Assembly (NCBI GenBank): GCA_015231175.1 | Contig: JADGBZ010000015.1 | Coordinates: 1-41,931, forward strand | Direction: 5' to 3' | DNA from: Magnetococcales bacterium | Lineage (GTDB): Bacteria; Pseudomonadota; Magnetococcia; Magnetococcales; DC0425bin3 | Length of the DNA stretch: 41,931 nt | Shown here: positions 13,892 to 40,074 of the stretch, in pieces | Layout: each line of letters opens with the position of its first letter | Position numbering within the stretch: position 1 is the stretch's first letter | Notes under the pieces: generated by a model | What the model saw: only the letters and a program-made list of their open reading frames with translations | What the model was told of the DNA's origin: nothing | The model's database searches: none | Made by a program: the position numbers and the translations under genes

Positions 13892-14039
13892 GTAACCATT
13901 CAGTACCCGGCAACGAATCGGGGTCCAGGGGGCTGGCTCCCTGGCTTGGTCCAGGGCAGCGCCCTGGTGGGGTTCGGGACGAAGCCCTGACAAAGGCTTT
14001 CATGTCCAGGCTTTTCTGGAAGGGGCGATGAGTGGTTAC
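13892..14039 (-). mobile_element. Complete 148-bp MITE-like element
   Basis: Ends GTAACCATTCAGTACCC (13892-13908) and GGGCGATGAGTGGTTAC (14023-14039) are imperfect inverted repeats. The core is the same as at 9848-9994, with hairpins CCAGGGC-GCCCTGG and CCAGGGA-CCCTGG. No clear flanking duplication is visible, so this is an older insertion or the duplication has decayed. Confidence 0.88.
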
Positions 14040-14139
14040 GGTCCGGAGGTCTCTGAACGATTACGACACGAGAGAAGTGATGTGGGCCAATACTGAGGAG
14101 AGAACGCCAGCCACGTCGCCGGCTGGCAGATCATGTTTG

Positions 14140-15050: not shown

Positions 15051-15054
15051 CCTC

Positions 15055-20150: not shown

Positions 20151-21276
20151 AAGGCCGACCATCCTGTTGGTGGATGACGAACCTGCCAATCTCAAGCTGC
20201 TTCGAGAAATTTTGCGCAAGGATCATGACCTGTTGTTTGCACACAACTGCGCAGAAATGTTTGAATATGCCGCCGACCAACCAGACCTGATCTTGTTGGA
20301 TGTCATGATGCCGGAGATGGACGGTTATACAGGATGCGCCCTGTTGAAGGCAAACGAGGCAACACGCGATATTCCAGTCATATTTGTCACCGCCAAAATT
20401 GAAATGGATGACGAAATTAAGGGGTTTGCTGCGGGAGCTGTGGATTATCTGACCAAACCTGTGCAAGGTCCAGTGGTACGGGCTCGTGTCAAGACCCATT
20501 TGGCATTGCGACAGGCAAGAGAGCTTGTTGTCCGGCAGAACAAGGAGATTATGGCACAATATGAATCGCTCAAGAAAACGGCTCAACTGCGGGATGATGT
20601 GGAACACATTGTTCGCCACGACCTGAAAGGTCCACTCAATGCCATCATTGGCATGCCGGAGGTGGTGATCAACGATGGGCCATTGACCGAAACCCAGGAA
20701 AAATTCCTGCACATCATTGAGGAAAGCGGCTACCTGTTATTGGATATGATCAATCGTTCACATGATCTATACAAGATGGAGCAAGGCATTTATCAGATAG
20801 ACGCCAAACCGGTCAATATACTTGTGATTCTGGGTCGTGTTTTAACTGAACTTCAGCAACAAATACACGAAAAAAAATTATTGATCGATATAACTCTGAA
20901 CAGCAGGCCCGTTGTTTCAACGGATCTGTTTCTCGTCTCCGGAGAGGAGCTTCTGTACCACTCCATGTTCTCCAACCTGCTCAAAAATGCGGTTGAGGCG
21001 TCTCCAGCGAAGCAATCATTGATGATCAGTTTAAAACAAAAGGAAAAACCGGTCATACGCATAAGCAACAAGGGGAGTGTGCCCGTTGTGATTCGAGACA
21101 ATTTTTTTGGAAAATACGTTACTTCCGGCAAACAACAGGGAACCGGTTTGGGGACTTATTCCGCCATGCTGATTGCCAAAACATCGGGAGGGGACTTGCT
21201 GTTGGACACAACCAGGGAAGGCATGACATCTATTATAATCAAACTGAAAGCCTGGACGGATTGTTCCGCTTCGTAG
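20134..21276 (+). CDS. Response-regulator/histidine-kinase protein (REC-HisKA-HATPase)
   Basis: Predicted 380-residue soluble protein. The receiver has Asp56 and Lys109, a coiled linker follows, then a HisKA-like domain with His162 in [12 protein letters not shown] and an ATPase domain with [10 protein letters not shown] and [10 protein letters not shown]. The His motif HDLKGPLN belongs to the HDxKxP class, different from the HEIRTP of the two upstream kinases. The start is ATG 20134, with GGGAG nine bases upstream, overlapping the previous gene by 17 bp. As last gene of the operon it may receive phosphate from an upstream HPt domain. No output domain is visible. Confidence 0.9.
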
Positions 21277-21453: not shown

Positions 21454-21582
21454 ACAGAGACGCGGAGAGCCTCCTGTCCATCAAATAATCTGATGTAGCC
21501 AAAAAGCAAGAAATCTGTCAGAATCGTTCGGAGCGGATTGGTTTGGCTGCAACCTGATGTTTTCTCTTCATGGAATCAAGCA

Positions 21583-24500
21583 ATGGCCATACATGCCTCT
21601 CCCAACTCCACAACATCCCTGGCTGGTTCGGGCGAAGCCCGTCCCCTCCCTGTCGCCAATCCCCACGACGGGACGATCCATGTCACCCCGGATGGGGGCC
21701 AGGTTTATCTGCCGGACGCCTCGTTTTTGCTGACCGGAGAGTATACCCGATCCGGCGCCGATCTGATCATCGAGAACGTGGCCGGGGAGAGGGTGGTGAT
21801 CGAGGGTTATTTCGCCGGGAAAAATCACCCCCTGCTCAAGCTTGCCAACGAGGCCACGGTCACGCCGGATACGGTCGAGGCGCTGCTCCTCAATCCGGTA
21901 GCCCCCTACATGGTGGCCGGGCCGACCTTCTGGCCGGGGGGAGAGGCGGAATCTCCTGTCATTGGCCATGTAGACCGGGTGGTCGGGCGGGTTTTCGCCC
22001 GGGATCGCAATGGTGAGTCCCGCCTGCTGCAAAAGGGGGATTCCATCCATCTGGGCGATGTCATCGATACGGGCAAGGAGAGTCTGCTGAAACTCCTGCT
22101 CAACGACGACACCATGTTTCAACTCGGTGAGAATGCCCGTGGCATCCTGACCCAATATATTTTCGATCCCGGCAGCGCGTCCGGAAAATTTGCCGCCACG
22201 GTGTTGCAGGGCATTTTTCGTTATGTCAGCGGCAAATTGGCCCATCTCAGCAAAACAGGCCAGCATACGGTTATCAAGACGCCGGTGGCCACGATCGGCA
22301 TTCGCGGCTCGGCGCTGGACGGCGAGGTCACTCCAGCCGGGGAGACCACGGTGGTGCATACTTCGGGCGTGCTCTCCATCGGGGATGCCCAAGGCCAGGG
22401 GAGTATCACCCTGACCACGCCGGGAACAGCCACAGCCGTGTCATTCACCGGCGGGCCTCCGAAGCCGGTCTTCAAGGCGCCCGACACCTTCATGGCCAAG
22501 TTGAACTCCCAACTGTCCACCCAGGTCTTCGAGCAGAAGGAGCATGCCGAGCAGAAACAGATCGAACAAAAAATCGAGCAGCATAAGGAGGAACAGAAGC
22601 AGGAGCAGGGCAAAGAGAAATCGGACAAGGCCGATGCCAAGACCGGGGAGGCCGCTGGCGACAAAGGGGAGCAAAAGGGGGACGAAAAAGGCAAAGGGGA
22701 CGACGCCAAAAAAGACGAGGCCAAAGCGGACGACGCCAAAAAGGATGATGCGCAAAAGGACAACGCCAAAAAGGATGATGCGCAAAAGGACGACGTTTCA
22801 GCCAAAACCGACGACGCCAAAAGCGGGCCGGACTTCGGCGAAGATCGCCCCCCGGAAAAATCCGGCGACGACACGAAAAAAGCCCCATCCGGCGGGCCGG
22901 ACTTCGGCGCCGGCGACGCACCCAGACCGGATGGCCCGGGCAAGGCCGCCGGGCCTGACTTTGGCGACGGCGCCCCCAAACCTCCAGCCGATACCGGTCA
23001 GGCCAAGCCGGGCGCCGGAACGAACAATCCTGCCGGTGGGCCGGATTTTGGCGTTGGTCCCATCCCGGGCAGCAACAGCGGAGAACCGGTGCGTTTGGGC
23101 AGTGCACTCCCCCCGGGAAATCTTCCGGGACAGCCTGAGACCACCGCCAAAACATTTGGCACAACCCTCGCCCCCCCTCCTTCCGATGCCGCGAAACACC
23201 TGCTCCCTTCCCCGACCAACAACCTGCCCGCTGCCGGTACGCAACCCAGCCTTGTCGAGACACAAAACGTCAAACTCCCACCACACCCGGGGAGTGACAC
23301 CCTCGATGCCCAGGAACAGGGCGCCCTGACCATCCCCCCAGCCAAGCTCCTGGCCAACGACCAGGATCCCCGTGGGTCATCCCACTTGAAGATCGATCCG
23401 CAGGGATTTGATTTTTCAAAACTGCTCGGAAAGATCGCTGTCGGATCCGATGGCACGCTGACCTATCAACCTGATGGTCGTTTTGACCATTTGAACCCCG
23501 GGGAGACCGCGACCGAAACCTTCAGCTATACGGTTGCCAACAGTCATGGCCTTGTCGCCACAGCCCCTGTCGTCGTGACCATCACCGGAGAGAATGATGC
23601 CCCGACGGTCAACAACACGCTTGTCACCAACCAAAATTTCATTCTGGGCAAAGCTTTCAGCTACGTCGTCGATGCCGAAACCTTCAGCGATGTGGACACA
23701 GGCGACAAACTCACCTATTCGGCCAACCTGGCAGGGGGAAGCGCCCTGCCCTCTTGGCTCAAATTCGATCCCGCCACCGCCACTTTCAGCGGCACCGCCG
23801 GCGCCGATGCGACCAACGATGTTCAGGTTCAGGTCACGGCCACGGACACATCCCAAGCATCGGTCTCGGCCAACTTGACCTTGCAACCCCTGGCACAGGG
23901 GGTCTTCCTCGATGGCGCCGTCAGCGGCCTCAATTATCAAACCGCCACCCAGTCAGGCTTGACCGACAGCCAAGGCAACTTTCTCTACCGCCCCAACGAG
24001 ACCATCAAATTTTACGTGGGAAATTTTTATCTGGGGCAATCGGCGGGCGGCTCCGTGGTCACGCCGGTGGATATCGCCGACGCGGGAAATTCGACGCGGG
24101 TAGCCAACACCTTGCAACTCCTGCAAATGGCCGATGCCGATCACGACTTGAGTAATGGCATCCAGATTTCCGCTGCGACCAGCGCCGTCATTTCGGGCTT
24201 GAATCTCAACCTGGACACCCCCCTGACCGAGACAAATTTTGCCCCCCTCCTTTCCCAGAATGGTGGAACCTTTATCACCCAATCACAAGCCTGGAGCCAT
24301 TTCGGTCAAACCCTGGGTAACCTGAGCAGTGAAAAAGGGGGTTTTACCGGACTGTCCATTTCCAGCAACACTCTCTCCGCCGGGGCCACAGCCGGCGCCG
24401 CCGTGGGTACGCTCACCGCCCAGGCGCCAGCCGGGGCGACCCCGGTGGTGCAGATCATCGGGGGAGCGGATGCCGGGTTGTTCGAGGTCAACAACGGCGT

Positions 24501-27500
24501 GCTGCAACTCAAGGCCGGGGCTGTATTGGATTTTGCCAACCACCCCACGCTGGAAGCGGAGTTTCTGACCACGGATGCCAAGGGGGGCATTCCGCCCCGG
24601 GTGGACGCCCTGACCATCACCCTGACCAACCCCAATCACGCCCCGACCCTTGCGGGCCACGCCAGCATCCCGGCCCATACCTCTGATCTCGCCAGCTCGG
24701 GCGCCACAGTCGGCGCATTGTTCGTTGGGCTCTTCAAGGATGCCGATACAAGTGACCGTCTGGCCGGGGTGGCCGTTGTCAACAATCCGGCGACCATTAG
24801 CCAGGGGGTATGGCAATATTCCGTGGATGGCGGGGCCAACTGGACCGCGCTCGGCGCAGCCAGTGACGGTGCCAAGGCCATTGCCCTCTCCGCCGCCAGC
24901 CAGGTGCGTTTTCTGCCTGCGGCTGGTTACACAGGTTTGGCGCCGGAGTTGTCCGTCAGGGCGTTGGACAGCTCCTACAAGGGCAATTGGTCATCTACGA
25001 ACGCCATCGTGCAGGTCGATACCACCACAACGGGTGGATCGACCCCGATCAGCACAACCACCATTCCCTTGGGGGTCGATCTCACATTTTACCAGGGTGC
25101 GCCTTATCCGTTTGGGGTCGTTTTCGATACCGTGGCCAACCTGACGGCCAATGCCGGTGGGTACATCAATGCGGCACAACGTGTCACGGTGGTCGATACG
25201 GCAACCGTGGCCCAGTTGGCAACCATCGATGCCTTGACGCCGGGAACGGTCGTTCCCACCAGTCTGGCCGATACAGCGGCCCATCTGGCTGGCAGCGCCG
25301 GGGTTTATGTGACAGGCGCCGTCAACGTGACGGTGAGTGATGCCGCATCCCTGGCCCAACTGACGGCTATCGATGCCGCCACCACCGGAACCATGACCTA
25401 CAGCACCGGAGGTATCGCCGACACGGCAACCTACCTGGCAGTCAATGCCGGTGGCTATGTCACTGGCGCCGTCGACGTGACGGTCACCGACACCGCCACC
25501 ATCGCCCAACTGGCCGCCATCGACGCCCTGACCACCGGAACCATGACCTACAGCGCCGGAGGTATCGCCGACACGGCAGCCAACCTGGCAGCCCATGCCG
25601 GTGGCTATGTCACTGGCGCCATCGACGTGACAGTCACCGACACCGCCACCATCGCCCAACTGACCGCCATCGACGCCCTGACCACGGGAACCCTGACCTA
25701 CAGTGCGGGAGAGATCGTCGATACGGCGGCAAATTTTGTCGCCAATGTCGGTGGCCTGGTGACGGGCACCATCAACGTCACCCTGTCCGATGCCGCCACC
25801 ATCGCCCAACTGACCGCCATCGACGCCCTGACTGCGGGAACCCTGGATTACACGACGGGTGGCATCATCGATACGGCAGCCAACCTGGCGACCAACGCGG
25901 GAGGCTATGTCGACAGCTCCACCAACGTCACGGTCAGCGATACACAGACCTTGGCCCAATTGGCTGCCATCGATACCGTCACGGGAACGGTCACGGCAAC
26001 CCATGTATCCGACACATGGGCCCATTTGACCGCCAATACAGGCGGATACGTGACCCGTTTCACCGATGTCGCCGTGACCGATACGGCCACCATGGGTCAG
26101 TTGGCCGCCCTGGATCTTGCGGCAGGGGTGGTCACCGCCACGCAGATCACCGACGCAGTCGGTCAACTGTTCGTCAATGCGGGTGGCTACATAACCGGCA
26201 ACGTCGCCGTCACCGTCACCGATGCCGCCACCATCGCCCAACTGACCGCCATCGATGCCCTGACCACAGGCGCCGTCACCCCGACCACCATCATCGACAC
26301 CGCCGCCAACCTGGCCGGCAACGTGGGCGGATATGTGGGTGGCGGGATCCATTGCATCATCACCGATACGGCGACCAGCGCCCAGTTGACCACCATCGAT
26401 GGCTTGACCACCGGAACTTTGACCGTCTTGAACAACGTGGATCTGGTGGGCAACTACAGCAACCCCTCCCCCAGCCTGAACCTGCTTGCAGCTGCCGTCA
26501 CCATCAACGGCGGCGGATATACCCTCGACAACCCCAATGGCTCCACCCTGAACCTGGACGATGACAGTTTTGCCTCCGTTCCGACCCTGAGCACCCTGAG
26601 CAACAGTGGCACCATTCATATCCAACGTTCACCTGGTACGGTGACGGTCCATGGCGCCTACCTCAACAATGCCGCCTCCGTCCTGGCCATAGGTGTGGGT
26701 GGTACGACCAGTCTGACTGGTGCAGCCATTGCCTTTGCCAGCGGCCTGACCAACGCCGGCGTCATCGCGCTGGACAATCATGACGCCAGCACAGCTGACG
26801 CAAGCCTGACCATCACGGCAGGCACCCTGACCAACAGCGGCACCCTCTGGTCATTGAACTCAGGGGGCGCCGTCGCCGGGGTGCGCACCATCACCGGCAA
26901 CGTCACCAACAGCGGCACCATCGATGTCGATTACGATCTGACCGTCGCCGGCGGCACGCTGGACACATCGTATGGCACGTTGGACCTGGCTGCCGGGACG
27001 ACGCTTGTCGCCAACGCCTGTACCATCGTGATCGGGGCCGGAACCTCACTCATCGGCACAGGCGTGCTCCGCCCGGACAGCTCCTTCGATATGACAGACA
27101 GCTTCGCCTACGGGAACACGGTGACGTTGGATCTGCTGCACAGTACGGTGACCATCCGGGGGGCCTTTTCATTTGGCCTGCTCAACGGCAGCCATCTCGC
27201 CATGGATGACGACATCGTGGATGAAAACACCACCATCAGCAATGATGGGACTGTCGAAATCCAACGCCACGCGGGAACGGTCACCATCAACGGAACCTGG
27301 TACAATCAACCCCCCAACGGGTCGCTCGTCATTGGCAAAGGCGGCAGTGGCGGCAGTGCCGATATCGTGTTCGCCAGCGGATTTACCAACTATAACCTTA
27401 TCGAACTGGACAACGAGAGCAGCAGTACCGATGAGGCCTCCCTGACCATCACCAGTGGCACTCTGACCAACCCCGGAACCATCTGGTCGCACGACTCCGG

Positions 27501-30500
27501 GGGTACGGCGGCGGGGTTGCGCACCATCACCGGCAACGTCACCAACACAGGCCGTATTCTGGTCCATCATAACCTGACCATCAACAACACCGGCGCCACC
27601 TTCGATACCAGCAGCGGCACCATCGATCTGTCCACCCTGAGCCCCAGCCCCACGTTGACCATCGACTCCGGCACCACCCGGTTTGGCGCCGGCACCACCC
27701 TTTTGGGGTTCGGCTATCTGGTATTGGCGAACGCCCACACCCTGGACCTGACGGGAAATTATAACCATCAAACCCCGGCGCATCTGGACCTGCTCCACGG
27801 CACGGTGACCATCCAGGGTTCCGGCTACACCTTCACGAACGCTGCCGCCTCCATCCTGAACCTGGACAACGATCACTTTTCCGCCGGGCTGACCCTGAGC
27901 AACAGCGGCACCATCAATGTATTACGTTCTTCCGGTACGCTGACCATCGACGGTTCCTCCAGTAACAACGTCGGCGCCGTGCTGGCCATCGGCATCGGCG
28001 GCACCGGCAACGCGGCTCTGGCTGTCACGACCAGCTTCACCAACGCCGGAACCATCATTCTGGATAACGAGAGCAGCACCGCCGGCAACAGCACGCTCTA
28101 CGCCAACAGCAACGGTGTCATTCTGACCAATTCCGGTCGCATCTGGTCGCGGGATTCCGGTGGCACGGCAGCCGGGATGCATACGATTTATGGCTGCATC
28201 GTCAACTCCGGCGTCATCGATGTGGATTATAATCTGCTTATTGGCAATACCGGCACCTTGGCCACTTTTGACACCTCGGCTGGTACCATCAATCTGGGTA
28301 CGGGCGCCGTTCTGACCATTTCCGGTGGCACCACGGTATTTGGCACCGGCACCGTCCTGAATGGCAATGGCTCGATTCACCTGGCTGGAACCCAGACCTT
28401 GATGTTGGCAAGCAACTACACCTACAGCATGCCCTCCTTCAATCTGGTTTTCTATGGTGCGGTGACGGTTACAGCCGTATCGCCCACCACCTTCATGATC
28501 GCGGCCAGTGGCGCACTGGACATGGATGGCGACACATTCGCCACCCAAGTCGGGTTGGTCAACCTTGGATTTTTGAGCTTTGGCGGTACCGGCAACCATA
28601 TCGACGGCACCCTGACAAACGATGGCGTTCTGTACGTCGATGGCTACAGCTATGCAGCGACCGAAGCCATCTTTGCCAGCGGTTTCACCAATGCCGGCAC
28701 CCTGGTTCTTGACGACACCGCCGCCAATGCCAGCGCGGTCCTGTTACAGATCAATTCGGGCACATTGATCAATACAGGCACCCTCCAGATGCAAAATTCC
28801 GGAGCCGGCACCGCAAGCACCTTCCATATCGATGGACATCTCAGCAATCAAGGTAGCATGTACCTGATCGGCAATCACAGCACCTTGATGTTGGATCATG
28901 CGGCAGTTTTTGGAACATTTGTCAACAACGGCACCCTGTCGATCCTCTCCGACAGTGCAACGCTCAAGATCTCCGGCCTGCCCAGCACGACATTCACCAA
29001 TGATGTCAATGGTCTTATTTCCGGAATCGGGACGATCGACGTTTCGGATCCCGATGTGACCTTCATCAACAACGGCAGGATCCTGCCGGGTCTGACCACG
29101 ACCGGCAACCTGACCATTCAAGGCCCCGTCACTTTTGGCAATACCGGTACGCTCGAACTCTTTTTGGAAAGCAGCCAGAGCTTTGACAAGTTGACGGCCA
29201 GCAGCGTCGATCTGAACAACGCCTCCGATACCGTGGTTCTTCATTTCTACAACTACTTTGTGCCTGCGCATGGTCAGACATTCGACATCATGTCAGCTTC
29301 TTCCGTTTCCGGAGTATTTGACTATTATGCCCATGCTCTGGGGACGGACTGGACCTTTACCCAGGCTTTTGCAGGCGGCCAGTACCAGGTGACGGCCCAC
29401 AAGGCCATCGATGCAGCCACGTCGTTGGGCAATATCACCGGAATTCGCGGATTTTCTCTGCAAGGCGCTGCCGCCGGCGACAATTCCGGCAACGTGGTCG
29501 GATCGGCTGGAGACTTTAACGGCGACGGTTTTTCCGACGTTCTGGTCACATCCGAAAACAACGACGTTTCGGCCAGCAACGCCGGCGCCACCTACGTGAT
29601 ATTCGGCACGTCAGCGGGCGTCACCTCGCCTCAATCTCTCACAGGCAGTGGTTTTACCGCTGTTGGCGTTGCGGTCAACGACTTTTCCGGAAGCTCGGCG
29701 GCCTCTGCCGGCGATGTCAACGGCGACGGCGTGGACGATTTGATCATCGGCGCCAAAGGGGCGGATGTGGTCAATGGCGGAACCATGACGGATGCCGGTG
29801 CAGCCTCCATTATTTTTGGTCAAACAACCTGGTCTGCCGACCCTTTCAATCTGTCGAGTCTGAATGGCGGCAACGGCTTTACGTTGACCGGCGGCGCTGC
29901 GGACGATTTTCTGGGACATGCGGTTCATGGCGCCGGCGACATCAATGGCGATGGCTACGATGACATCATTGTGGGCGCCTACAAAACCAATACCAACCAA
30001 GGCAGCGCTTATGTCGTATTTGGTCATGGCGGCACGTTTACCCCCACTCTCGCAGTCAGTGCCCTGGATGGCAGCAACGGTTTCACCATGAACGGTATCA
30101 CCACGAGCCAGACAGGATATTCAGTCAGCTCTGCCGGGGATGTGAACGGCGATGGGTATGACGACATCCTGGTTGGCACATCCGCCACCGTCAACTCGGC
30201 TGTTCCCGGCAAGGCCTTTCTGGTTTATGGGAAAGGTTCAGCTTTTGACGCCACCCTGAATCTCGCCACCATGACTTCCACCGATGGCGTCACCCTGGTC
30301 GGCGCCAACAATGGCGACTCCCTGGGTTTGGGGGTCGATGGCGCCGGAGATGTCAACGGCGATGGTTACCAGGATATCATCGTCAGCGCCAGTAACTTTG
30401 ACCTCTCCTCCGACGCCGGCGCCGGCGCAACCTATGTGATTTTCGGTTCGGCCTCCCTACCGGGTTCCATCGCCGTCTCCTCCCTGGATGGCAACGATGG

Positions 30501-31473
30501 ATTTGCCATGTATGGCATGGCTGGCTCCGACCATGCCGGATCCTCGGTCGCAGGGGTGGGAGATGTGAATGGCGACGGTTTCGATGACGTTCTGGTCGGC
30601 GCCCTTCAAGCCGATCCTGGAGCCATTGCCGATGCCGGTCAGGCCTATCTGATTTTCGGCGCTCCCAATGTTGGCAATGGGGGTTCCCTGAATCTTTCCG
30701 CCCTGGATGGCCATAATGGCTTGGCCCTGAACGGGGATCACTCTGGTGATTGGGCGGGAAGTTCCGTGGGCGCGGGCGGTGATTTCAACGGTGATGGCTT
30801 GAACGATTTCATGGTCGGCGCCACCAGGGATGCCGTTGGCGCCAACGCCCTTGCCGGGATCAGCACCCTGGTCTATGGAGATAATTTCCCGGGAAAAATC
30901 AATTTCAAGGGCAATACCGGCAACAATACCATCGTCGGCTCCGGAGCTGATGAAAACCTGGTCGGCGGCGCCGGCAACGACACCCTGGATGGGGGCAGCG
31001 GCAACGATGTCCTGATGGGAGGCCAAGGGGATGACATCCTCTTTCACGACTCCGCGGACACCCGCGCCGTGGTGGGTGGTTCTGGCGTGGACACCTTGTA
31101 CCTCCATGGCACGGTTCCCTCGCTGAACTTACATACGAACACGGCCATAAAGGGCATCGACATCATCAACATGAACACTGACGCCGGAGCGAACAACCTT
31201 GAGCTCAACATGAACGATGTGCTGAAAATCTCCGACCACAACGCGCTGATCGTCATGGGCGATGCCGCCGACACCGTGACGGCCAATTCCCTGGATGGCT
31301 GGACCAGGGCAGCGTCCACCACGGTCCACGTCAACGGCCAGAATTTAAGTGTCAGCTCTACCGGGCTGACCGAGTTGGGCGGCCATACGTTTGATGTCTA
31401 TACCGCTCCGGTCAACCACCTGGGGGTGTTGTTGATCGAGGATCCGATCCTGCCAAGCAGCGGCATCATCTGA
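21583..31473 (+). CDS. Giant type I secreted FecR/cadherin-like/FG-GAP/RTX surface protein
   Basis: Predicted 3,296 residues with no signal peptide, as expected for type I export. In order: N-terminal region with a FecR domain (about 135-245); a Lys/Asp/Glu-rich then GPDFG-repeat low-complexity region (306-500); VCBS- and Ig/cadherin-like domains (570-1147), including one opening SGLNYQTATQSG; nine 44-50-residue repeats (1182-1616); four repeats, the first three of about 215 residues, of beta-helix character (1617-2606); seven FG-GAP repeats with D-x-NGDG calcium loops (2620-3103), enough for one seven-bladed propeller; RTX nonapeptides GGAGNDTLD, GGSGNDVLM and GGQGDDILF (near 3113-3150); and a C-terminal tail that should hold the export signal. 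Probably a calcium-stabilised adhesin. ATG 21583 is chosen over an upstream TTG. A TolC-like gene follows. Confidence 0.9.
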   Translation: MAIHASPNSTTSLAGSGEARPLPVANPHDGTIHVTPDGGQVYLPDASFLLTGEYTRSGADLIIENVAGERVVIEGYFAGKNHPLLKLANEATVTPDTVEALLLNPVAPYMVAGPTFWPGGEAESPVIGHVDRVVGRVFARDRNGESRLLQKGDSIHLGDVIDTGKESLLKLLLNDDTMFQLGENARGILTQYIFDPGSASGKFAATVLQGIFRYVSGKLAHLSKTGQHTVIKTPVATIGIRGSALDGEVTPAGETTVVHTSGVLSIGDAQGQGSITLTTPGTATAVSFTGGPPKPVFKAPDTFMAKLNSQLSTQVFEQKEHAEQKQIEQKIEQHKEEQKQEQGKEKSDKADAKTGEAAGDKGEQKGDEKGKGDDAKKDEAKADDAKKDDAQKDNAKKDDAQKDDVSAKTDDAKSGPDFGEDRPPEKSGDDTKKAPSGGPDFGAGDAPRPDGPGKAAGPDFGDGAPKPPADTGQAKPGAGTNNPAGGPDFGVGPIPGSNSGEPVRLGSALPPGNLPGQPETTAKTFGTTLAPPPSDAAKHLLPSPTNNLPAAGTQPSLVETQNVKLPPHPGSDTLDAQEQGALTIPPAKLLANDQDPRGSSHLKIDPQGFDFSKLLGKIAVGSDGTLTYQPDGRFDHLNPGETATETFSYTVANSHGLVATAPVVVTITGENDAPTVNNTLVTNQNFILGKAFSYVVDAETFSDVDTGDKLTYSANLAGGSALPSWLKFDPATATFSGTAGADATNDVQVQVTATDTSQASVSANLTLQPLAQGVFLDGAVSGLNYQTATQSGLTDSQGNFLYRPNETIKFYVGNFYLGQSAGGSVVTPVDIADAGNSTRVANTLQLLQMADADHDLSNGIQISAATSAVISGLNLNLDTPLTETNFAPLLSQNGGTFITQSQAWSHFGQTLGNLSSEKGGFTGLSISSNTLSAGATAGAAVGTLTAQAPAGATPVVQIIGGADAGLFEVNNGVLQLKAGAVLDFANHPTLEAEFLTTDAKGGIPPRVDALTITLTNPNHAPTLAGHASIPAHTSDLASSGATVGALFVGLFKDADTSDRLAGVAVVNNPATISQGVWQYSVDGGANWTALGAASDGAKAIALSAASQVRFLPAAGYTGLAPELSVRALDSSYKGNWSSTNAIVQVDTTTTGGSTPISTTTIPLGVDLTFYQGAPYPFGVVFDTVANLTANAGGYINAAQRVTVVDTATVAQLATIDALTPGTVVPTSLADTAAHLAGSAGVYVTGAVNVTVSDAASLAQLTAIDAATTGTMTYSTGGIADTATYLAVNAGGYVTGAVDVTVTDTATIAQLAAIDALTTGTMTYSAGGIADTAANLAAHAGGYVTGAIDVTVTDTATIAQLTAIDALTTGTLTYSAGEIVDTAANFVANVGGLVTGTINVTLSDAATIAQLTAIDALTAGTLDYTTGGIIDTAANLATNAGGYVDSSTNVTVSDTQTLAQLAAIDTVTGTVTATHVSDTWAHLTANTGGYVTRFTDVAVTDTATMGQLAALDLAAGVVTATQITDAVGQLFVNAGGYITGNVAVTVTDAATIAQLTAIDALTTGAVTPTTIIDTAANLAGNVGGYVGGGIHCIITDTATSAQLTTIDGLTTGTLTVLNNVDLVGNYSNPSPSLNLLAAAVTINGGGYTLDNPNGSTLNLDDDSFASVPTLSTLSNSGTIHIQRSPGTVTVHGAYLNNAASVLAIGVGGTTSLTGAAIAFASGLTNAGVIALDNHDASTADASLTITAGTLTNSGTLWSLNSGGAVAGVRTITGNVTNSGTIDVDYDLTVAGGTLDTSYGTLDLAAGTTLVANACTIVIGAGTSLIGTGVLRPDSSFDMTDSFAYGNTVTLDLLHSTVTIRGAFSFGLLNGSHLAMDDDIVDENTTISNDGTVEIQRHAGTVTINGTWYNQPPNGSLVIGKGGSGGSADIVFASGFTNYNLIELDNESSSTDEASLTITSGTLTNPGTIWSHDSGGTAAGLRTITGNVTNTGRILVHHNLTINNTGATFDTSSGTIDLSTLSPSPTLTIDSGTTRFGAGTTLLGFGYLVLANAHTLDLTGNYNHQTPAHLDLLHGTVTIQGSGYTFTNAAASILNLDNDHFSAGLTLSNSGTINVLRSSGTLTIDGSSSNNVGAVLAIGIGGTGNAALAVTTSFTNAGTIILDNESSTAGNSTLYANSNGVILTNSGRIWSRDSGGTAAGMHTIYGCIVNSGVIDVDYNLLIGNTGTLATFDTSAGTINLGTGAVLTISGGTTVFGTGTVLNGNGSIHLAGTQTLMLASNYTYSMPSFNLVFYGAVTVTAVSPTTFMIAASGALDMDGDTFATQVGLVNLGFLSFGGTGNHIDGTLTNDGVLYVDGYSYAATEAIFASGFTNAGTLVLDDTAANASAVLLQINSGTLINTGTLQMQNSGAGTASTFHIDGHLSNQGSMYLIGNHSTLMLDHAAVFGTFVNNGTLSILSDSATLKISGLPSTTFTNDVNGLISGIGTIDVSDPDVTFINNGRILPGLTTTGNLTIQGPVTFGNTGTLELFLESSQSFDKLTASSVDLNNASDTVVLHFYNYFVPAHGQTFDIMSASSVSGVFDYYAHALGTDWTFTQAFAGGQYQVTAHKAIDAATSLGNITGIRGFSLQGAAAGDNSGNVVGSAGDFNGDGFSDVLVTSENNDVSASNAGATYVIFGTSAGVTSPQSLTGSGFTAVGVAVNDFSGSSAASAGDVNGDGVDDLIIGAKGADVVNGGTMTDAGAASIIFGQTTWSADPFNLSSLNGGNGFTLTGGAADDFLGHAVHGAGDINGDGYDDIIVGAYKTNTNQGSAYVVFGHGGTFTPTLAVSALDGSNGFTMNGITTSQTGYSVSSAGDVNGDGYDDILVGTSATVNSAVPGKAFLVYGKGSAFDATLNLATMTSTDGVTLVGANNGDSLGLGVDGAGDVNGDGYQDIIVSASNFDLSSDAGAGATYVIFGSASLPGSIAVSSLDGNDGFAMYGMAGSDHAGSSVAGVGDVNGDGFDDVLVGALQADPGAIADAGQAYLIFGAPNVGNGGSLNLSALDGHNGLALNGDHSGDWAGSSVGAGGDFNGDGLNDFMVGATRDAVGANALAGISTLVYGDNFPGKINFKGNTGNNTIVGSGADENLVGGAGNDTLDGGSGNDVLMGGQGDDILFHDSADTRAVVGGSGVDTLYLHGTVPSLNLHTNTAIKGIDIINMNTDAGANNLELNMNDVLKISDHNALIVMGDAADTVTANSLDGWTRAASTTVHVNGQNLSVSSTGLTELGGHTFDVYTAPVNHLGVLLIEDPILPSSGII
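22500..23080 (+). repeat. Low-complexity coding repeats (K/D/Q-rich, then GPDFG)
   Basis: Within the giant gene, 22540-22810 encodes runs of Lys, Asp, Glu, Gln and Ala with short duplicated units (for example KKDDAQKD twice). From 22822 to 23060, four GPDFG motifs are spaced by Pro/Gly/Asp-rich linkers. This looks like a flexible spacer between the FecR head and the folded domains. Confidence 0.85.
25126..26430 (+). repeat. Nine coding repeats of 44-50 residues
   Basis: Nine in-frame units each begin with DTAANLA-type sequence, pass AGGYVTGA, then VTVTDTATIAQL, and end AIDALTTGT. Units 3 to 5 are almost identical in DNA, suggesting recent duplication; the outer ones are more diverged. The regular hydrophobic spacing suggests a solenoid. 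I do not recognise a named family with confidence. Confidence 0.9.
26431..29400 (+). repeat. Four large coding repeats of beta-helix character
   Basis: Units start near 26431, 27067, 27727 and 28387. Each runs through a LDLLHGTVTI-like opening, LSNSGTI, FASGFTNAG, a LDNESS turn, a DSGGTAAG motif in units A-C, and a GTLxTS segment. The first three are close relatives; the fourth is diverged and extended. Frequent N-S-G-T and N-A-G-T turns resemble autotransporter passenger helices. Confidence 0.85.
29440..30890 (+). repeat. Seven FG-GAP repeats
   Basis: Seven units each contain AGDxNGDGxxDxxVG followed by a YVIFG or related strand, spaced about 65-75 residues. Seven is the number needed to close a single beta-propeller like that of integrin alpha chains. 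Confidence 0.92.
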
Positions 31474-31507: not shown

Positions 31508-31652
31508 TCACGACTCGTTTATTTTTGTCGGGATGGGGCAGCCTTGGTTTGAATCCAAGCTGGATTATCTCCATTTCGAGATGTATGATCCTGTGAAGAA
31601 ATTGGCAGAGGGTTATCGTTTCCCGACAGTTCGGTCATGGTGGACATCACAC

Positions 31653-33419
31653 ATGCTAGGGGTTGTTGATCTCTCCACTCTGGGCGGAGCGTCCCGGCGC
31701 GCGATTGCCAATCGTATCCGGGCACGTTGCCATTTGTGGAGATGGAGCGTGATGGCCCTCCTGATCCTGCCGGCACCAGCTTCGGCCACAACCCTCCTGG
31801 AGGCCACCGCTCACGCACTCAAGTCCAATCCTGAAGTGTTGGCTGCCTTGGAAAATCAGCGCGCCGTGCGCAATCAGATTGATGGGGCCAGGGCCGGATA
31901 CCTCCCCACCCTGGACACCGCCACGGCCTACGGTCGTGAATGGAGCAACAACACGACGACCCGGGGTCTGGGGTTGAACGGCCTGACGCTCACCAACGGG
32001 CAATCCAGCATCACCCTCTCCCAACTGCTCTACGACGCCGGCACCACGGCAGCCAACTCGGCCAAGGCGCAAGCCGCCTATGCCTCGGCCACCTTCGGAT
32101 TTCATCGTGTCGCGGAAGCCTTGCTGCAATCGGCCACGGATGCCTACCTGGAGTCCCTGAAACAGCAGGAACTTCTTGCCCTTTTGCAAGACAACGTCCG
32201 TCTGCATCAGGACATTCTGGAAAAGATCCAGGCCAAGTTCAAAAGCGGCGCCGGCAACGAGGCCGACGTTCAGCAAACCGAGACCCGTCTGGCCCTGGTT
32301 TCGGCCAATCGCGTGGCCACCCTGGGGGCATTGCGGATAGCCGAAGCCCGTTATCTGCGCATCACAGGCTTGCCGCCCAGGGATCTGCTTCGGCCTGAGG
32401 TCCATCTCGCCGCTATCCCCGTAAACTGGGATGTGGCGGAAGCTGCCGCTTTGCAATCTCACCCGGCCATTCTGGCGGTGCAACAGGATCTTGCCGCCGC
32501 GCAACACGACCTGGAGGCCATCAAGGGGAGCTTTCGTCCCAACATCAAGATGGATATCCTCTACGGAAACAATGCCAACCAGAGTGGGACGGTGGGTTAT
32601 GCACAAAATGTCTCCGCTCTGGTCAAAATGAACTACAACCTGTTTCGGGGTGGCGCCGACAATGCCCGGAAGCACGAATCCATGCAGCGCATCACCCAGA
32701 TGCAGCAGGTTTTGGAACAAACCCGCCGCACTGTCCGGGAAACCCTGCGCACCGCCTGGGAAGGTTTGGAAGCTGCGCGGGATCGCCTTGAATTTCTTGA
32801 GAAGCACGTTGCCATCAGCAGCAAGGTCTCCGCAGCCTATGGCGATCAGTTCAAAATAGGCAAACGCACCCTTCTGGATGTTCTTAACTCGGAAACCGAA
32901 CTGTTCACGGCCAAGTCCACCTTAACCACCGAACAGTTCAACCTTTTGGCCAACGCCTTCCGGGTCATGGGCGGCATGGGGAAACTTCAGGAGTTTCTCG
33001 GCGTGCAGAACCCACACACGGACCCGGCCACGACCGCGACCCCGGCTCTCCCTCTCCCTGTGACAGCTTTCCAGGAGACGATTGCCAGACTGGCTTCGGA
33101 CAGCTTCCCCACCCCCCCGAACCCACCCGCAAACCCGGCGCTCGATGGATCCCCCACCCACCCGAATCCGGGAGCCCATCCCGACCCGTCGGAAAGCACC
33201 GCACCCCTCGATTTGGACAACGTCCCACCCCCCGACCCGGAGGGGATCCATTTCTCGTCCCAAACTCCCTCCGTCCAGATTCCTCTCCCCGAGCGCACCC
33301 CACCATCCGTGGCAACACCCGCCCCCAAAAGGGTAGCTCCAGAAAAAGCAACCCTCGCACCCTCTTCGCCGACACCGGAGCCATCATCAAAATCAACCGA
33401 GACAGCCTACCCCTGGTAA
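31653..33419 (+). CDS. TolC-family outer membrane channel with proline-rich tail
   Basis: Predicted 588-residue outer membrane efflux protein, the exit duct of type I secretion. After a signal sequence ending LLILPAPASA, two outer-membrane-factor repeats follow with the usual long helices (for example VAEALLQSATDAYLESL, and later TVRETLRTAWEGLEAARDRL) and the YxxGKRTLLDVLNSE motif. The last 130 residues are Pro/Ser/Thr-rich and not part of TolC. ATG 31653 with GGTGGA upstream is chosen; ATG 31533 is possible but would give an overlong leader. Being directly after the giant RTX gene, it very likely exports that protein. No ABC transporter or adaptor gene is next to it. Confidence 0.88.
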   Translation: MLGVVDLSTLGGASRRAIANRIRARCHLWRWSVMALLILPAPASATTLLEATAHALKSNPEVLAALENQRAVRNQIDGARAGYLPTLDTATAYGREWSNNTTTRGLGLNGLTLTNGQSSITLSQLLYDAGTTAANSAKAQAAYASATFGFHRVAEALLQSATDAYLESLKQQELLALLQDNVRLHQDILEKIQAKFKSGAGNEADVQQTETRLALVSANRVATLGALRIAEARYLRITGLPPRDLLRPEVHLAAIPVNWDVAEAAALQSHPAILAVQQDLAAAQHDLEAIKGSFRPNIKMDILYGNNANQSGTVGYAQNVSALVKMNYNLFRGGADNARKHESMQRITQMQQVLEQTRRTVRETLRTAWEGLEAARDRLEFLEKHVAISSKVSAAYGDQFKIGKRTLLDVLNSETELFTAKSTLTTEQFNLLANAFRVMGGMGKLQEFLGVQNPHTDPATTATPALPLPVTAFQETIARLASDSFPTPPNPPANPALDGSPTHPNPGAHPDPSESTAPLDLDNVPPPDPEGIHFSSQTPSVQIPLPERTPPSVATPAPKRVAPEKATLAPSSPTPEPSSKSTETAYPW

Positions 33420-33797: not shown

Positions 33798-34068
33798 TGT
33801 ATCATCTCCCTGCCTATTCGGATATCCAACCCTCCACCGGGTTGCACGGTCTATGCTACCCATCCCACCGGGGGAGGTCAACCCAATCCTGGCTTTATTT
33901 GATTGAATATATTTATTAACACAAAGAAATATTTATTTTTTCAGCCGCCGGCCATTCTCTGGTGAAAAATCTTCTTGCAAGCGAGGTCTGGACTGCTATG
34001 ATGAGACGCATCGTGGGCGTGTGCGTTGGGTGTTCTTCATTGCGGGGGATTGCAGGGGGTGTCGCACC

Positions 34069-34428
34069 ATGATTTTCAGCTTTGATTCTTTTTCATTTTG
34101 CGAAGAAAAACAAAACGAGAGAAGAGTCTCATCGCGCATCTGCCACAGCAGACAGGTCACACTGGAGCTGACCAAAAACCGCACCGTTTTGGGTGTTACG
34201 GAAAATGTTGGGTGCGGAGGGGCCTTCGTACGCATTGAGAGCCCCATGTGGTCCTTGACACCTGGGGCCACCTGCCAATTGCGCCTGCTTGGCAGGCCAA
34301 CAGCCACGGCTTGGCCATGCCGGCTGGTTCGCACGGAGCGAAGCGGTGTTGGGGTCGAAATATTGAACGACGCGACTCACTTCCTGGGAGAGTGTGACAT
34401 CTCCCGCAAGGTCATGACCTGCCAGTAA
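34069..34428 (+). CDS. PilZ-domain protein
   Basis: Predicted 119-residue single-domain PilZ protein; PilZ domains bind cyclic di-GMP and alter surface or motility machines. The RRVSSR segment gives the RxxxR motif, followed about 25 residues later by ENVGCGGAF. The second motif is normally D/N-x-S-x-x-G; here the Ser position is Gly, so binding may be weakened or altered. Start ATG 34069 has AGGGGG upstream; a GTG at 34021 is less likely. It sits next to FecR and OmpA-type genes, suggesting control of envelope functions. Confidence 0.8.
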   Translation: MIFSFDSFSFCEEKQNERRVSSRICHSRQVTLELTKNRTVLGVTENVGCGGAFVRIESPMWSLTPGATCQLRLLGRPTATAWPCRLVRTERSGVGVEILNDATHFLGECDISRKVMTCQ

Positions 34429-34491: not shown

Positions 34492-34679
34492 CCAGCCATA
34501 CTCTTCTTTTGGCGTGGCGCCTGCCTTTGGAGGGTGGCCGTGGGTTTTGCGGTGGCGCCGTCACTTTGTACGTTTATTTTTCCGGTGAATGAATCTACCA
34601 TGCCGGAAGCGGGTATCGGGTGGTCCAAGGGTGCGTTATGGAACGGAAAGCGGCAAATCATCAGGAAAAGGGTGCGTCC

Positions 34680-35141
34680 ATGTCCAAGTCGGTTTATTAC
34701 GTCGTCGTCTTCTTGCTTCTAGGTCTTTTTGTCGGTATCGCGCCAGCCCGTGCGACAAGCTCCCCCGAGGCTATCGGCCACATCAAAAAGCTGGAGGGGT
34801 CCGTCAAAATTTTGCGCGCCTCGAAAACGGTTGATGCCAAACTGGGTGACGAAATTTTCATGAACGACACCCTGAAGTCTGGGACTGGCGCCGCCATGGG
34901 AGTGACCTTCAAGGACGACACGCGTGTCGCTCTCGGTCCTGATACTGAGTTTGTCGTAGATGATTTTGTCTATCAGCCCCAAAAGAACAAACTTTCTTTC
35001 GGTTCACGCATCACCAAGGGCACCTTGCAAGTCATCTCCGGAACGATTGCCAAACTTTCTCCGCAATCCGTCAAGCTTGAAACCCCGACCGGAACGATTG
35101 GCGTCCGTGGAACGCGCTTCCTGGTCAAGGTGGGAAAATAA
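34680..35141 (+). CDS. Periplasmic FecR-domain protein
   Basis: Predicted 153-residue exported protein. The signal peptide is about residues 1-25, ending APARA. The rest is one FecR domain: KLGDEIFMNDTLKSGTGAAM, VTFKDDTRVALGPDTE, then ETPTGTIGVRGTRFLV. FecR domains of this free type occur beside CHASE2 cyclases and OmpA proteins in many proteobacteria, and their ligand is not known to me. The same domain forms the head of the giant exoprotein at 21583-31473, with the shared ending T-P-x-x-T-I-G-x-R-G. ATG 34680 has AAGGG nine bases upstream; an in-frame ATG at 34638 is possible. Confidence 0.88.
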   Translation: MSKSVYYVVVFLLLGLFVGIAPARATSSPEAIGHIKKLEGSVKILRASKTVDAKLGDEIFMNDTLKSGTGAAMGVTFKDDTRVALGPDTEFVVDDFVYQPQKNKLSFGSRITKGTLQVISGTIAKLSPQSVKLETPTGTIGVRGTRFLVKVGK

Positions 35142-35336
35142 CATGGTCTATTTCCGGCATGGAAAGAACCTGTGCCAGAGGTCAAGCTGGAGCAGGTTGC
35201 GAGCCTGTCCGCCCGGGGGTCAGTGCCGGTCGGATTGGTTGGGTGTGCATCGCCCCTGCAATGCGCGAGGCTCCGGTGGGCGCATCCTGTTCTCGCTCTT
35301 TTCCATCTCACTGGTATCACACGGAACGATCCAAAC

Positions 35337-37343
35337 ATGAGCAATACACCCCGGCATGTCATCATCAACCTGGACGGCAACAGGTTTCTTCTGAAGGGCC
35401 GGTCCTGCGAGCCTTTGCCGTCATTGGACGCAGTCAAGGGGGACAAGTGGGTCATCACGGATTTCCGGGGTGCTCCATCCTTCCTCATGTCTGTCGAAGC
35501 ACCGCAGCGTTACGCCGAACTCCTCGCCCACCGACAACTCCAGGAGCAGGGGGAGGCCAATCAGCACGCCCGGCTGCTCACTCACTGGAAACAAGGACGC
35601 ACGGCAAACCTGAGCGAGTTGTTCTTTACCGTGGTGGAGAAGGATGCGGCAACCAGCTATTTTGACATGGCCCAGGCCGACTCCAACCATCACCTCGTGT
35701 TCCCCCTCAATGCCGTTCTGTACGATGTGCTGGTCAAAAACTCCTCCAAAAAACAAAATGTCGCTGTCCTGTTCGATCACGATCGGCATGTGGACATCCT
35801 GATCGGCAATCCGGGGCGTATCGCTGGCAACTTGCGGCTCTCTTCGCACTCGTCAGCACCAGAGGACAAGGCCAATATGGTCGAGTCCCTCCAGGATGAG
35901 TTGAGGTCCATGGCCTCCAAGGCCAATATGCGCCTTGAGAAAATCATCTATTTCAACTGGCATCTCCTGGATGAAACCGGCAGCGCCACATCCGCGACAA
36001 ACACCGACATCTCTTTCGGTACCGAAAGCGACGGGGCCACGATGGCCACCATCGGTGGACACCTCGACGGCGCCATCAAAACCTCGACAAAAAAAGCGAC
36101 GTCTGCGTCGCGTTCTGCGTTGGTCATGAGCGCCGGCTGGGTTCGTCAGTTGGCGGAAAAAATGCAACTAAAGTGTGTCGTCCTGCAACAAACCCGTTAT
36201 GAGCAGGAGAATGATCAGGTACTGGTAACATCCCTGCCAACCGCCATCAAGAGTCTCTCCTACCAGCGTGCGGGAAACACTACCCTTGAGATCGTCAAGT
36301 ACGGCGCGGAAAAGGCCGTTGTGCCCTTTTTGACCACCTTCTTGATTGTGGTGGGGGGCCTCTACCTGTCTCATCTCTTCCTCGCACAGAAAACCCGAAC
36401 CATCGAAAAGCAGATCGAGGCGGAAAAAGGGCAAGGCTTCCACTATGAACCTGTCTTGCCTATCTCCCCCGACTCCACAAAGGTCGTCGATTTTACCAAG
36501 CGCCTCTCCTCCCTGTTCGACATGCCGTCGCCGCGCTCCATCCTGGTCGAGGTCAGCGATTCGATCCCGGAGGGGATGGATATCCATGTCAGAAAACTTT
36601 CCTTCGACTACGATGCGCGTATGACCCCGATCATCACCATGGATGGGTTTGTCGGTGGTGGTTTCAAGGTTGCCAAACAGGCCTACACCACGTTCATGCA
36701 GTCCCTCGTCAAACGTGGCTACGTCCTCGAAGCAGAGTCCCTGAACACCGATGTCCAGAAGATCAATTTTGTCACCAAAATCAGGCGTGAGCATGCCCAG
36801 CCCAAAAATATGGTGATTCTGCTCCCGGGCGATGACGGCAAGGTCGGTGCGGTCTCCGTGACCAACAAGGGCGGACACCAAGAACTGAACACCGCACATG
36901 CAGCCGTGGGTGTGGATGACGCCGACGTGGCCCCTACCCAGCCATTTTCCATGGACCAGAGCCAGATTCAAGCCGCCTTCGGCAAAGCGCTTGATGCCAA
37001 CCCTGAGCCACCTCTCCACTTCATTCTCAATTTCAACTCGGGCGGAACAGACTTGACCGAGGAGTCCAAGCTCCGTATGACGGAGCTCCTGGGCGCTGTC
37101 TCCAAACGGTCCACCCCTCCCACGGTGGAGGTTGTCGGTCACACGGACACTGTGGGGCCTGCTGACCGGAACTGGCAGCTTGCCCTGGATCGGTCACAGT
37201 CTGTCCGAAACAAGCTGGTGGAGATCGGTCTGAAGCCGGAGATGGTCGACTTCAGTTCCCACGGCGAGGGCAATCCCCTGGTGCGTACCGCCGACGAAGT
37301 GTCCGAATCACGTAATCGCCGGGTCGAAGTGACCATCCAGTAA
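35337..37343 (+). CDS. Trans-envelope protein with PilM/GspL-like, PilN-like and OmpA-like parts
   Basis: Predicted 668 residues with one membrane segment at about 328-350. The cytoplasmic half (1-320) has the layout of actin-like PilM/GspL proteins: VAVLFDHDRHVDILIGNPGR, then a LQDELRSM helix and RLEKIIYF strand. The periplasmic part at about 380-482 resembles PilN (FDMPSPRSILVEVSDSIPEG, then a DGFVGG strand and a FMQSLVKRGY helix). Residues 558-668 are a clear OmpA peptidoglycan-binding domain with GHTDTVGPADRNWQLALDRS. The OmpA call is firm; the PilM/PilN calls rest on pattern and topology. The gene follows the FecR gene by 195 bases. It would tie a cytoplasmic ATPase-like fold to the cell wall. 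Confidence 0.75.
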   Translation: MSNTPRHVIINLDGNRFLLKGRSCEPLPSLDAVKGDKWVITDFRGAPSFLMSVEAPQRYAELLAHRQLQEQGEANQHARLLTHWKQGRTANLSELFFTVVEKDAATSYFDMAQADSNHHLVFPLNAVLYDVLVKNSSKKQNVAVLFDHDRHVDILIGNPGRIAGNLRLSSHSSAPEDKANMVESLQDELRSMASKANMRLEKIIYFNWHLLDETGSATSATNTDISFGTESDGATMATIGGHLDGAIKTSTKKATSASRSALVMSAGWVRQLAEKMQLKCVVLQQTRYEQENDQVLVTSLPTAIKSLSYQRAGNTTLEIVKYGAEKAVVPFLTTFLIVVGGLYLSHLFLAQKTRTIEKQIEAEKGQGFHYEPVLPISPDSTKVVDFTKRLSSLFDMPSPRSILVEVSDSIPEGMDIHVRKLSFDYDARMTPIITMDGFVGGGFKVAKQAYTTFMQSLVKRGYVLEAESLNTDVQKINFVTKIRREHAQPKNMVILLPGDDGKVGAVSVTNKGGHQELNTAHAAVGVDDADVAPTQPFSMDQSQIQAAFGKALDANPEPPLHFILNFNSGGTDLTEESKLRMTELLGAVSKRSTPPTVEVVGHTDTVGPADRNWQLALDRSQSVRNKLVEIGLKPEMVDFSSHGEGNPLVRTADEVSESRNRRVEVTIQ

Positions 37344-37702: not shown

Positions 37703-39916
37703 CTACTTGGAAGAGAGCACCACGCGGCTTCCCTTCTGGCCACTCTCCAGGCGTTGCAGATGAAACCGGACCAAGCCGTCATCCGGGTAAGCGGCAGCCA
37801 GGTTTTGGAACGCTGCCAAGGCAGCCGGATCCTCCTCGGTCATGCTTTGGTATGCTGCCTTATAGGCCTGGATGTGTGGTGACGTCTCCTCTTCCATCGT
37901 CAGCAACTCAAAAGTCTCGATGCCCTTCTCTTTTCCCTTCAAGACCAACTCACCCGCCGGGCGACCGACAAAATCCGGACATTGCGCCACGGTCGAACCA
38001 CTGACACAGATGCGCGTTCCCAACTGCTTGTTGACGCTCTCAAGGCGGGCTGCCGTGTTGATGGCATCGCCAAGGGCACGATAGTCCAGGACATTGTTGC
38101 CGCCAAAATTTCCCACCAGGACAGTGCCGGTATTGACCCCAATCCGGGTCAAACCGAAGGGAATCTTTTTTTCCTGCTGCTGATACCGGGCAAATTTCCA
38201 GGAGAATGTGTTCATATCCCGGGCGCAACGAACGGCACGGATGGCATGGTCGGGTTGTGCAACCGGTGCCGAAAAAATAATGGCCACGGCATCCCCCACG
38301 ATGCGGTCCAAGGTGCCCTCGTGGGAAAAAGCGATCTTCACCATCTCGTCCAGATATTCGTTCAGCAAAGCCACCATGGCATTGGGATCAAATTTTTCCA
38401 TGAGGGACGTGAACCCGGCCAGGTCGGTCATGACGAAACTGCATTCACGTTTCTCTCCCCCCAGCTTCAACAACTCCGGGTGGTCGATGATGTACTGCAC
38501 CAGGTTTGGGGAGACATAACTGGCGAAAGCTTCGCGGATCCACTGGGATTTTTTCTCTGCCTGCAAGTACCTGGGTACGGAAAAGGTTGCAAACGTACCC
38601 ATCACCATGATGGATGGCAAAACGGGATCCAGCAGCAGATTCCACTGATTGAAGGCATACCAGGAGCCATAACAGGTCACCGCCACCGCCCCGCCGCCGA
38701 CCACCACGGACCATGTGGCGCCAAGGCGCGCCAACAGGGTGACGAGCAACAACCACATCAGCACCATGAAAATGATGGCCCCTGCCTGTTCGAGATCGGG
38801 ACGCTCCAGAAAACTCCCCTGCAACATCTGTTCAACCAACTGGGCATGGACCTCGACCCCGGGAATGATGCCGCCCAGGGGGGTAAACCGCACATCCAGC
38901 AAACCTTTTGCCGATGGTCCCACAAAAACGATATGCTCCTTGAACCGGGCAGGATCGGACTTGCCTTCAAACAATTTCCAGGCCGGTTCATACCGGTCGG
39001 GGAGAGAGGGGGTGTAGTGCAACCAGATATCCCCACGCGGTCCGACAGGCACGGTCAGGTTACCGATCCGCACCGATATCATGCCCGTGTGTCCTCCAGC
39101 GCGTTCCTCGCCATGCGCTCCCGAGGATTTAATGAAATAGTTTTTCGCTCCCTGGGCCACGCGCAAGGCCTCTGCGGCGAGACTGGGGTAGAGTATGTCT
39201 TCCGACCGCTGAATCAAGGGAACGCTGCGGATCACCCCATCGCTGTCGGCGGTGAAGGCGAAGGTGCCATTGCCCACCGCAGCGGCCTCCAGGATGGGTA
39301 AAGTCGCCACTCGTCCGGGCAAGGATCGAAGAAATTGTTTGGGATCATCGCCGGCGGTCACAAACGCCGCCTTCTGGGCCGGTTCGCGGTCGTTGGATTT
39401 TTTTTCGCCCAGGGTAAAACCGGTGACAACCTGACCTCGGCGAATCGCCTCGGCAAAAACCTCATCATGGTCCGGCATCTGGCGGAGCAGGTCCATTTTT
39501 GTCGCATCACCCTTCCACAGCTCCAGCAACCGTGCGGGCGATGTCCGATCCGGTTCCGCAAAAACCACGTCAAAAACAATGGCCGCCACATCCAAGTCCT
39601 GCAACCGCCGCACCATCTCCGCCTGCACGGTGCGTGGCCAGGGCCATTGGCCCAGCTTTTCCAGACTGACATCATCAATGTCCAGGATACGCACCGGAGC
39701 ATTCTGGTACTCCCGGGGGTGCCAGCGCTGAAAGGCATCGAACGCAACATTGCGCAGCGTACCCACCATGGGATCATCCCTCAACTCTGCCCCAATCCCC
39801 ACAAGCAGGACACAAAAGGAGAGCCAATAAGGCATGGTTTCAACAATCCACGCCATAATCCGGCTCAGGAAAGGGGGCCATGATCTGGCATTACGTGTTG
39901 CGGATTTTTTTTTCAT
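37703..39916 (-). CDS. CHASE2-domain class III adenylate/guanylate cyclase
   Basis: Predicted 737-residue membrane enzyme. An N-terminal helix (about 22-45), a periplasmic CHASE2 sensor (about 45-360, with ILDIDDVSLEKLGQWPWPR and the GIIPGVEVHAQLVEQML signature), further membrane helices (about 380-455), then a class III cyclase domain (about 500-680). The metal-binding Asp residues are in MTDLAGFTSL and VGDAV, and RALGDAINTAARLE is present, so it should be active. The position before the second metal motif reads DRIVGD, with Arg where adenylate cyclases usually have Lys; substrate preference is therefore uncertain. Start ATG 39916 is used; a GTG at 39985 would add 23 residues. CHASE2 cyclases often neighbour FecR genes, as here. 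Confidence 0.92.
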   Translation of the reverse strand: MKKKSATRNARSWPPFLSRIMAWIVETMPYWLSFCVLLVGIGAELRDDPMVGTLRNVAFDAFQRWHPREYQNAPVRILDIDDVSLEKLGQWPWPRTVQAEMVRRLQDLDVAAIVFDVVFAEPDRTSPARLLELWKGDATKMDLLRQMPDHDEVFAEAIRRGQVVTGFTLGEKKSNDREPAQKAAFVTAGDDPKQFLRSLPGRVATLPILEAAAVGNGTFAFTADSDGVIRSVPLIQRSEDILYPSLAAEALRVAQGAKNYFIKSSGAHGEERAGGHTGMISVRIGNLTVPVGPRGDIWLHYTPSLPDRYEPAWKLFEGKSDPARFKEHIVFVGPSAKGLLDVRFTPLGGIIPGVEVHAQLVEQMLQGSFLERPDLEQAGAIIFMVLMWLLLVTLLARLGATWSVVVGGGAVAVTCYGSWYAFNQWNLLLDPVLPSIMVMGTFATFSVPRYLQAEKKSQWIREAFASYVSPNLVQYIIDHPELLKLGGEKRECSFVMTDLAGFTSLMEKFDPNAMVALLNEYLDEMVKIAFSHEGTLDRIVGDAVAIIFSAPVAQPDHAIRAVRCARDMNTFSWKFARYQQQEKKIPFGLTRIGVNTGTVLVGNFGGNNVLDYRALGDAINTAARLESVNKQLGTRICVSGSTVAQCPDFVGRPAGELVLKGKEKGIETFELLTMEEETSPHIQAYKAAYQSMTEEDPAALAAFQNLAAAYPDDGLVRFHLQRLESGQKGSRVVLSSK

Positions 39917-40074
39917 GAGACCTGCCTGTTTGGCAATAGGGGTCGGGATATGGTCCGAAACGATAAAATGGATTCTGCTCAACACCCTCGAAAAGTGCTA
40001 TTCTGTCCCATCGTACTGCTTATCGCCAGGGAAAGCCGTAAACGAATCATCAACGCGCTGACAAACGGTGAGAC

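Follow-up and report, generated by a model that had tools for sequence, protein, structure and literature searches.

The DNA analysed here (the window, 41,931 nucleotides of contig JADGBZ010000015.1 from a bacterium of the order Magnetococcales) contains an open frame in which PilM-like and PilN-like parts of a pilus platform are followed, in the same chain, by a linker and a peptidoglycan-binding domain of the OmpA family. Its parts, with the evidence for each, are listed below; G000, G001, G002 and G003 designate genomes of the Magnetococcales family of the window (f1), and c0 the protein family that includes the free PilM-PilN proteins and the PilM-PilN part of the fusion.

35337-37343, forward strand: open frame of the PilM-PilN-linker-OmpA fusion protein, 668 aa
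35337-36281, forward strand: PilM/GspL-type actin-like cytoplasmic domain, residues 1-315 (AlphaFold2 model, fold matches)
36315-36371, forward strand: single membrane helix, residues 327-345 (hydropathy, model)
36462-36794, forward strand: PilN-like periplasmic domain, residues 376-486 (model, profile-profile comparison)
36801-37022, forward strand: linker domain, corresponding to the second half of a FecR module, residues 489-562 (matches in giant proteins)
37023-37340, forward strand: OmpA peptidoglycan-binding domain with D604 and R619, residues 563-668 (Pfam, fold, residues)

The first methionine of the frame aligns with the starts of 24 relatives. In Pfam searches OmpA was the sole family matched (residues 566-661, E-value 2.8e-16), a relaxed cut-off added nothing beyond it, and none of the curated PilM, PilN, MshI and GspL models of Pfam and NCBIfam matched the sequence. 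A preliminary description stated that it knew of no standard family combining PilM-like and PilN-like parts with OmpA, and this is right. Likewise, no PilM was found among the matches of the A1 profile to PDB sequences. In an AlphaFold2 model built from a 17-sequence alignment, confidence was high over residues 1-210 and about 260-345, good over approximately 400-480, and residues about 215-255 were disordered. Residues 1-348 modelled alone reached a pTM of 0.81. Foldseek comparison of this last model with the PDB gave PilM of P. aeruginosa as the best match (5eou, 3.3e-9), followed by FtsA and by GspL cytoplasmic domains. Because of these fold matches the actin-like PilM/GspL half proposed in the preliminary description holds, despite the lack of a PilM family match by sequence.

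The rest of the architecture proposed there was also borne out. A single hydrophobic helix (residues 327-345) separates the actin-like half from a region whose comparison with the Magnetococcales PilN family gave a profile-profile probability of 93% (95% in global mode), with values of at most 1.6% for six controls, one of them a reversed PilN alignment, and of 33% for the PilO family, as expected of related folds. An alpha-beta-beta unit is predicted to be repeated at residues 399-484. The linker modelled in isolation gave only low confidence. At the C-terminus, fold matches of the OmpA part include MotB structures, and it retains the conserved Asp and Arg of its family (D604 and R619), the positions at which such domains contact peptidoglycan. 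Between the fusions of G000 and G003 the PilM part is the best-conserved segment (62% identity, versus 52% for the OmpA part), and it keeps the residues that are invariant in its free relatives.

The fusion gene lies in a cluster built around a giant adhesin, composed of the following genes.

21538-31473, forward strand: giant RTX/FG-GAP adhesin, 3311 aa, with a FecR/retention-module-like N-terminus
31533-33419, forward strand: TolC-type outer-membrane protein (Pfam OEP; TIGR01844 above cut-off)
34021-34428, forward strand: PilZ-domain protein (Pfam 27.3 bits against a cut-off of 22.5; also present in the G002 and G003 clusters)
34620-35141, forward strand: FecR-domain protein, first half of the FecR-linker module (Pfam 3.4e-10)
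37703-39985, reverse strand: adenylate/guanylate cyclase with a CHASE2 domain, a conserved neighbour (Pfam)

The order giant adhesin, TolC, PilZ, FecR and fusion, with the CHASE2 cyclase on the other strand, is the same in G000, G002 and G003, which are the three genomes that carry the fusion. The PilZ and FecR genes that the preliminary description had placed next to the fusion are confirmed by Pfam, and the co-occurrence of PilZ, FecR and CHASE2 genes that it proposed to look for among homologues is found wherever the fusion is. Its suggestion of a link between second-messenger state and envelope anchoring fared unevenly: anchoring is plausible given the OmpA domain, whereas for the second-messenger part there is only the PilZ and cyclase neighbourhood, conserved in the three genomes. 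The linker domain, the giant adhesin and TolC genes of the conserved cluster, and the relatives of the fusion in pilus operons elsewhere had not figured in that description. In the window the FecR and fusion genes share a frame, with one TAA followed by 195 nt without a stop (35139-35336); in G002 the two genes are in different frames. Upstream of the giant adhesin, 14220-21276 (forward strand) encodes a periplasmic binding-type protein, two large hybrid histidine kinases and a response-regulator kinase.

Giant proteins contain a stretch that the linker matches and that continues a FecR domain there: FecR and linker lie in one chain, 7-10 aa apart, at all 14 giant-protein loci examined, with the first part of FecR in an upstream frame at one of them (L185). 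On the other hand, at the 11 linker-OmpA loci examined, that of the window included, FecR is without exception a separate neighbouring gene, on the opposite strand in two cases. As one chain in the giants thus corresponds to two genes here, the FecR protein and the fusion probably bind each other. Scores against the LapA retention module (NCBIfam NF033682) were 36.9 bits for the giant adhesin and 17 bits for the FecR protein, both below the cut-off of 50, so that the FecR-like N-terminus of the giant resembles a LapA-type module weakly; unlike in the giants, where the module is one chain, its halves here belong to two proteins, FecR and the fusion, and OmpA is attached. For FecR-domain proteins encoded beside giant adhesins, this split module points to definite candidate partners whose binding can be tested.

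Linker-OmpA proteins also occur in other forms. Short lipoprotein-like versions are encoded in G000 (C2), G002 (C42), G003 (C220) and probably G004, a PilN-like form is found in G020, and G011 (C287) contains a 370-aa open frame (L109:8008-9117, forward strand) in which c1, a pilus-operon protein described below, precedes linker and OmpA; a FecR gene lies upstream of this frame. As the architectures of the fusion and of the c1-OmpA protein differ, domains of the pilus operon have joined the OmpA family at least twice. A single origin of the f1 fusions and the PilN-OmpA protein of G020 was considered and set aside, the PilN tree separating G020 from the f1 fusions with weak support, which hints at separate joining events. 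The N-terminal parts of OmpA proteins from G005 and G007 look PilN-like by eye only, and hmmsearch gave nothing significant for them.

These neighbourhood data bear on a first alternative, to which we give a limited though real chance: that the fusion no longer takes part in pilus function and is an inner-membrane, wall-anchored device of the giant-adhesin system which, together with FecR and PilZ, would inform the type I secretion adhesin of the state of the cytoplasm, or would keep adhesin and TolC at the wall. The conservation of the whole gene order in three genomes is in line with it, as are the nature of the linker, which is otherwise found within the FecR module at the N-terminus of giant proteins, and the presence of FecR and CHASE2 genes also beside linker-OmpA proteins that have no PilM-PilN part. 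Against it, the PilM part is the best-conserved segment and preserves the residues invariant in a family encoded in pilus operons.

A search of 398 genomes of the phylum showed that the c0 family is nearly confined to Magnetococcales, with three remote matches outside, and that the only frames of the family longer than about 630 aa are the three fusions of f1. The full fusion is present in G000, G002 (71% identity) and G003 (47%), which belong to two genera and are separate assemblies, all of metagenome type. This narrow distribution and the type of assembly would suit a recent or accidental joining without specific function, or an assembly artefact; with two genera sharing architecture and synteny at 47% identity, all domains intact and no free c0 remaining in these genomes, such an origin is very improbable. 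No paper describing this architecture was found in the open-access literature that we searched. G014 encodes c0-family proteins at three places (C111, C44 and C72), two of these contigs also holding T2SSF or secretin genes.

In families other than f1, the counterpart of the PilM-PilN part stands alone as a protein of some 420-500 aa. Its gene is flanked by those of c1, which has about 170 aa and a single membrane helix, and c2, which has about 250 aa and weak T2SSB/GspC-like matches; the three genes usually overlap or nearly do so. In several genomes c1-c0-c2 stands beside genes for a secretin, a TPR protein, an AAA+SPOR protein, an MshE-type ATPase, T2SSF and pilins. Profile comparison of c1 with PilO gave no match, and c1 is accordingly not called PilO. 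Of 48 genomes, 25 have c0 together with c1 and 21 have neither; the remaining two (G001 and G047) are incomplete, and as the genomes are related the 25 co-occurrences are not independent events.

Within f1, G000, G001, G002 and G003 all have c1 directly next to c2, with no c0 between them (read at the DNA level in G000, G002 and G003). The flanks in G000 are an N-methylated pilin gene upstream and a gene for a protein of roughly 1000 aa (c10) downstream, and the series pilin-c1-c2-c10 is syntenic with that of families f2, f6 and f11 except that exactly c0 is missing. The fusion is the sole c0-family match in G000, G002 and G003, whereas G001, which is 76% complete, gave no c0 match at all. Since c0 is absent from its old place and the fusion is the sole match to its family, the fusion is the only c0 candidate in these genomes. 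No c1 remnant carried along upstream of the fusion was seen by eye in three-frame translations.

The fusion itself is encoded outside any pilus or T2SS operon, whereas its free relatives are inside such operons, and, as the preliminary description had claimed, no other pilus or type II secretion gene was found in the window. Its proposal of a stand-alone machine, on the other hand, finds poor support once the genome is considered, as the fusion belongs to a pilus-operon family, c1 and c2 are kept around the gap left by c0, and an MSHA-type core is present. The retention in f1 of c1 and c2, which otherwise co-occur with c0, also argues against a device serving the giant adhesin instead of a pilus.

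We therefore favour, at somewhat better than an even chance, the reading that the fusion is a relocated, wall-anchored platform subunit of an MSHA-type pilus (an MshI/GspL-type PilM-PilN protein). In the ancestor of f1, c0 would have disappeared from the c1-c0-c2 operon and become fused with an OmpA protein linked to FecR. Its cytoplasmic half would still contact the assembly ATPase, and its PilN-like half would still contact c1 and c2 in the periplasm, while the OmpA domain would keep the platform fixed to the peptidoglycan under pulling force. The linker domain would be completed by the FecR protein, which may tune the anchoring. Against this reading, the fusion gene lies in an adhesin locus, apart from the pilus genes, and its proposed partner c1 has no profile match to PilO. 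Furthermore, deletion of mshI in V. cholerae left surface MSHA pili unreduced, even raised (PMC4624765), so that the subunit may be dispensable.

The parallels with known systems are partial. Like MshI and PilM-PilN of MSHA and type IVa pili and GspL of the T2SS, the fusion consists of an actin-like domain, one helix and a PilN-like domain, and its free relatives are also encoded in pilus operons; V. cholerae MshI has itself been described as GspL-like with a match to the PilN superfamily (PMC4624765). It differs from these proteins in the added linker and OmpA anchor, in its adhesin locus and in matching none of their models by sequence. In type VI secretion, the 'specialized TssL' and TagL are inner-membrane platform parts that bear a peptidoglycan-binding domain of the OmpA family (PMC8253398), a likeness limited to the combination of platform and anchor, as the machine is different and the platform domains are unrelated. 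The flagellar motor protein MotB is also an inner-membrane protein fixed to the wall by an OmpA domain, but it lacks actin-like and PilN-like domains. By analogy, the added anchor would act like the peptidoglycan-binding domain of the 'specialized TssL' or of MotB.

Pilus machines must withstand pulling force. Their attachment to the wall is usually through separate proteins or other domains, such as the AMIN domains of PilQ, or FimV (PMC5285504). Here, the PilM-PilN platform part itself appears to bear the wall anchor as a fused domain, as does the 'specialized TssL', an arrangement that makes the anchoring step simple to test.

The fusion combines a pilus-platform part with an adhesin-type module, and the genome retains both gene sets, so that the protein could also join pilus platform and adhesin/FecR complex in one wall-anchored assembly. 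We consider such a dual role unlikely, as the neighbourhood could merely mark the place of the OmpA gene that received the PilM-PilN part. With similarly little confidence we propose that grafting the split FecR-linker and OmpA onto a platform subunit would physically couple a c-di-GMP-controlled MSHA-type pilus to the type I secretion giant adhesin in one wall-anchored trans-envelope complex.

For the favoured reading of a relocated platform subunit, a candidate pilus is encoded in contig C77 of G000, where an MSHA core cluster comprises MshL (above cut-off), an MshE-type ATPase that carries its c-di-GMP motif, T2SSF and a SPOR ATPase. The MshL secretin was useless as a marker for the presence or absence of an MSHA-type pilus, with matches in 48 of 48 genomes. 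As G000 contains several other T2SS/T4P clusters, with another fused PilM-PilN-type open frame on C40, which pilus the fusion serves is uncertain.

Elsewhere in the window, the reverse strand encodes type III-B CRISPR (Cmr) proteins at 86-6893 (three RAMP proteins, Cmr3 and Cas10/Cmr2) and, at 7910-9577, a serine/threonine protein kinase with Pro/Ser/Thr-rich repeats after the kinase domain. An interspersed repeat of about 150 nt is present in two copies around 4 kb apart (9848-9999 and 13892-14044), which are 93% identical over a 54-nt block and 85% over a 97-nt block, and a translated stretch of C40 in G000 is similar to this repeat.
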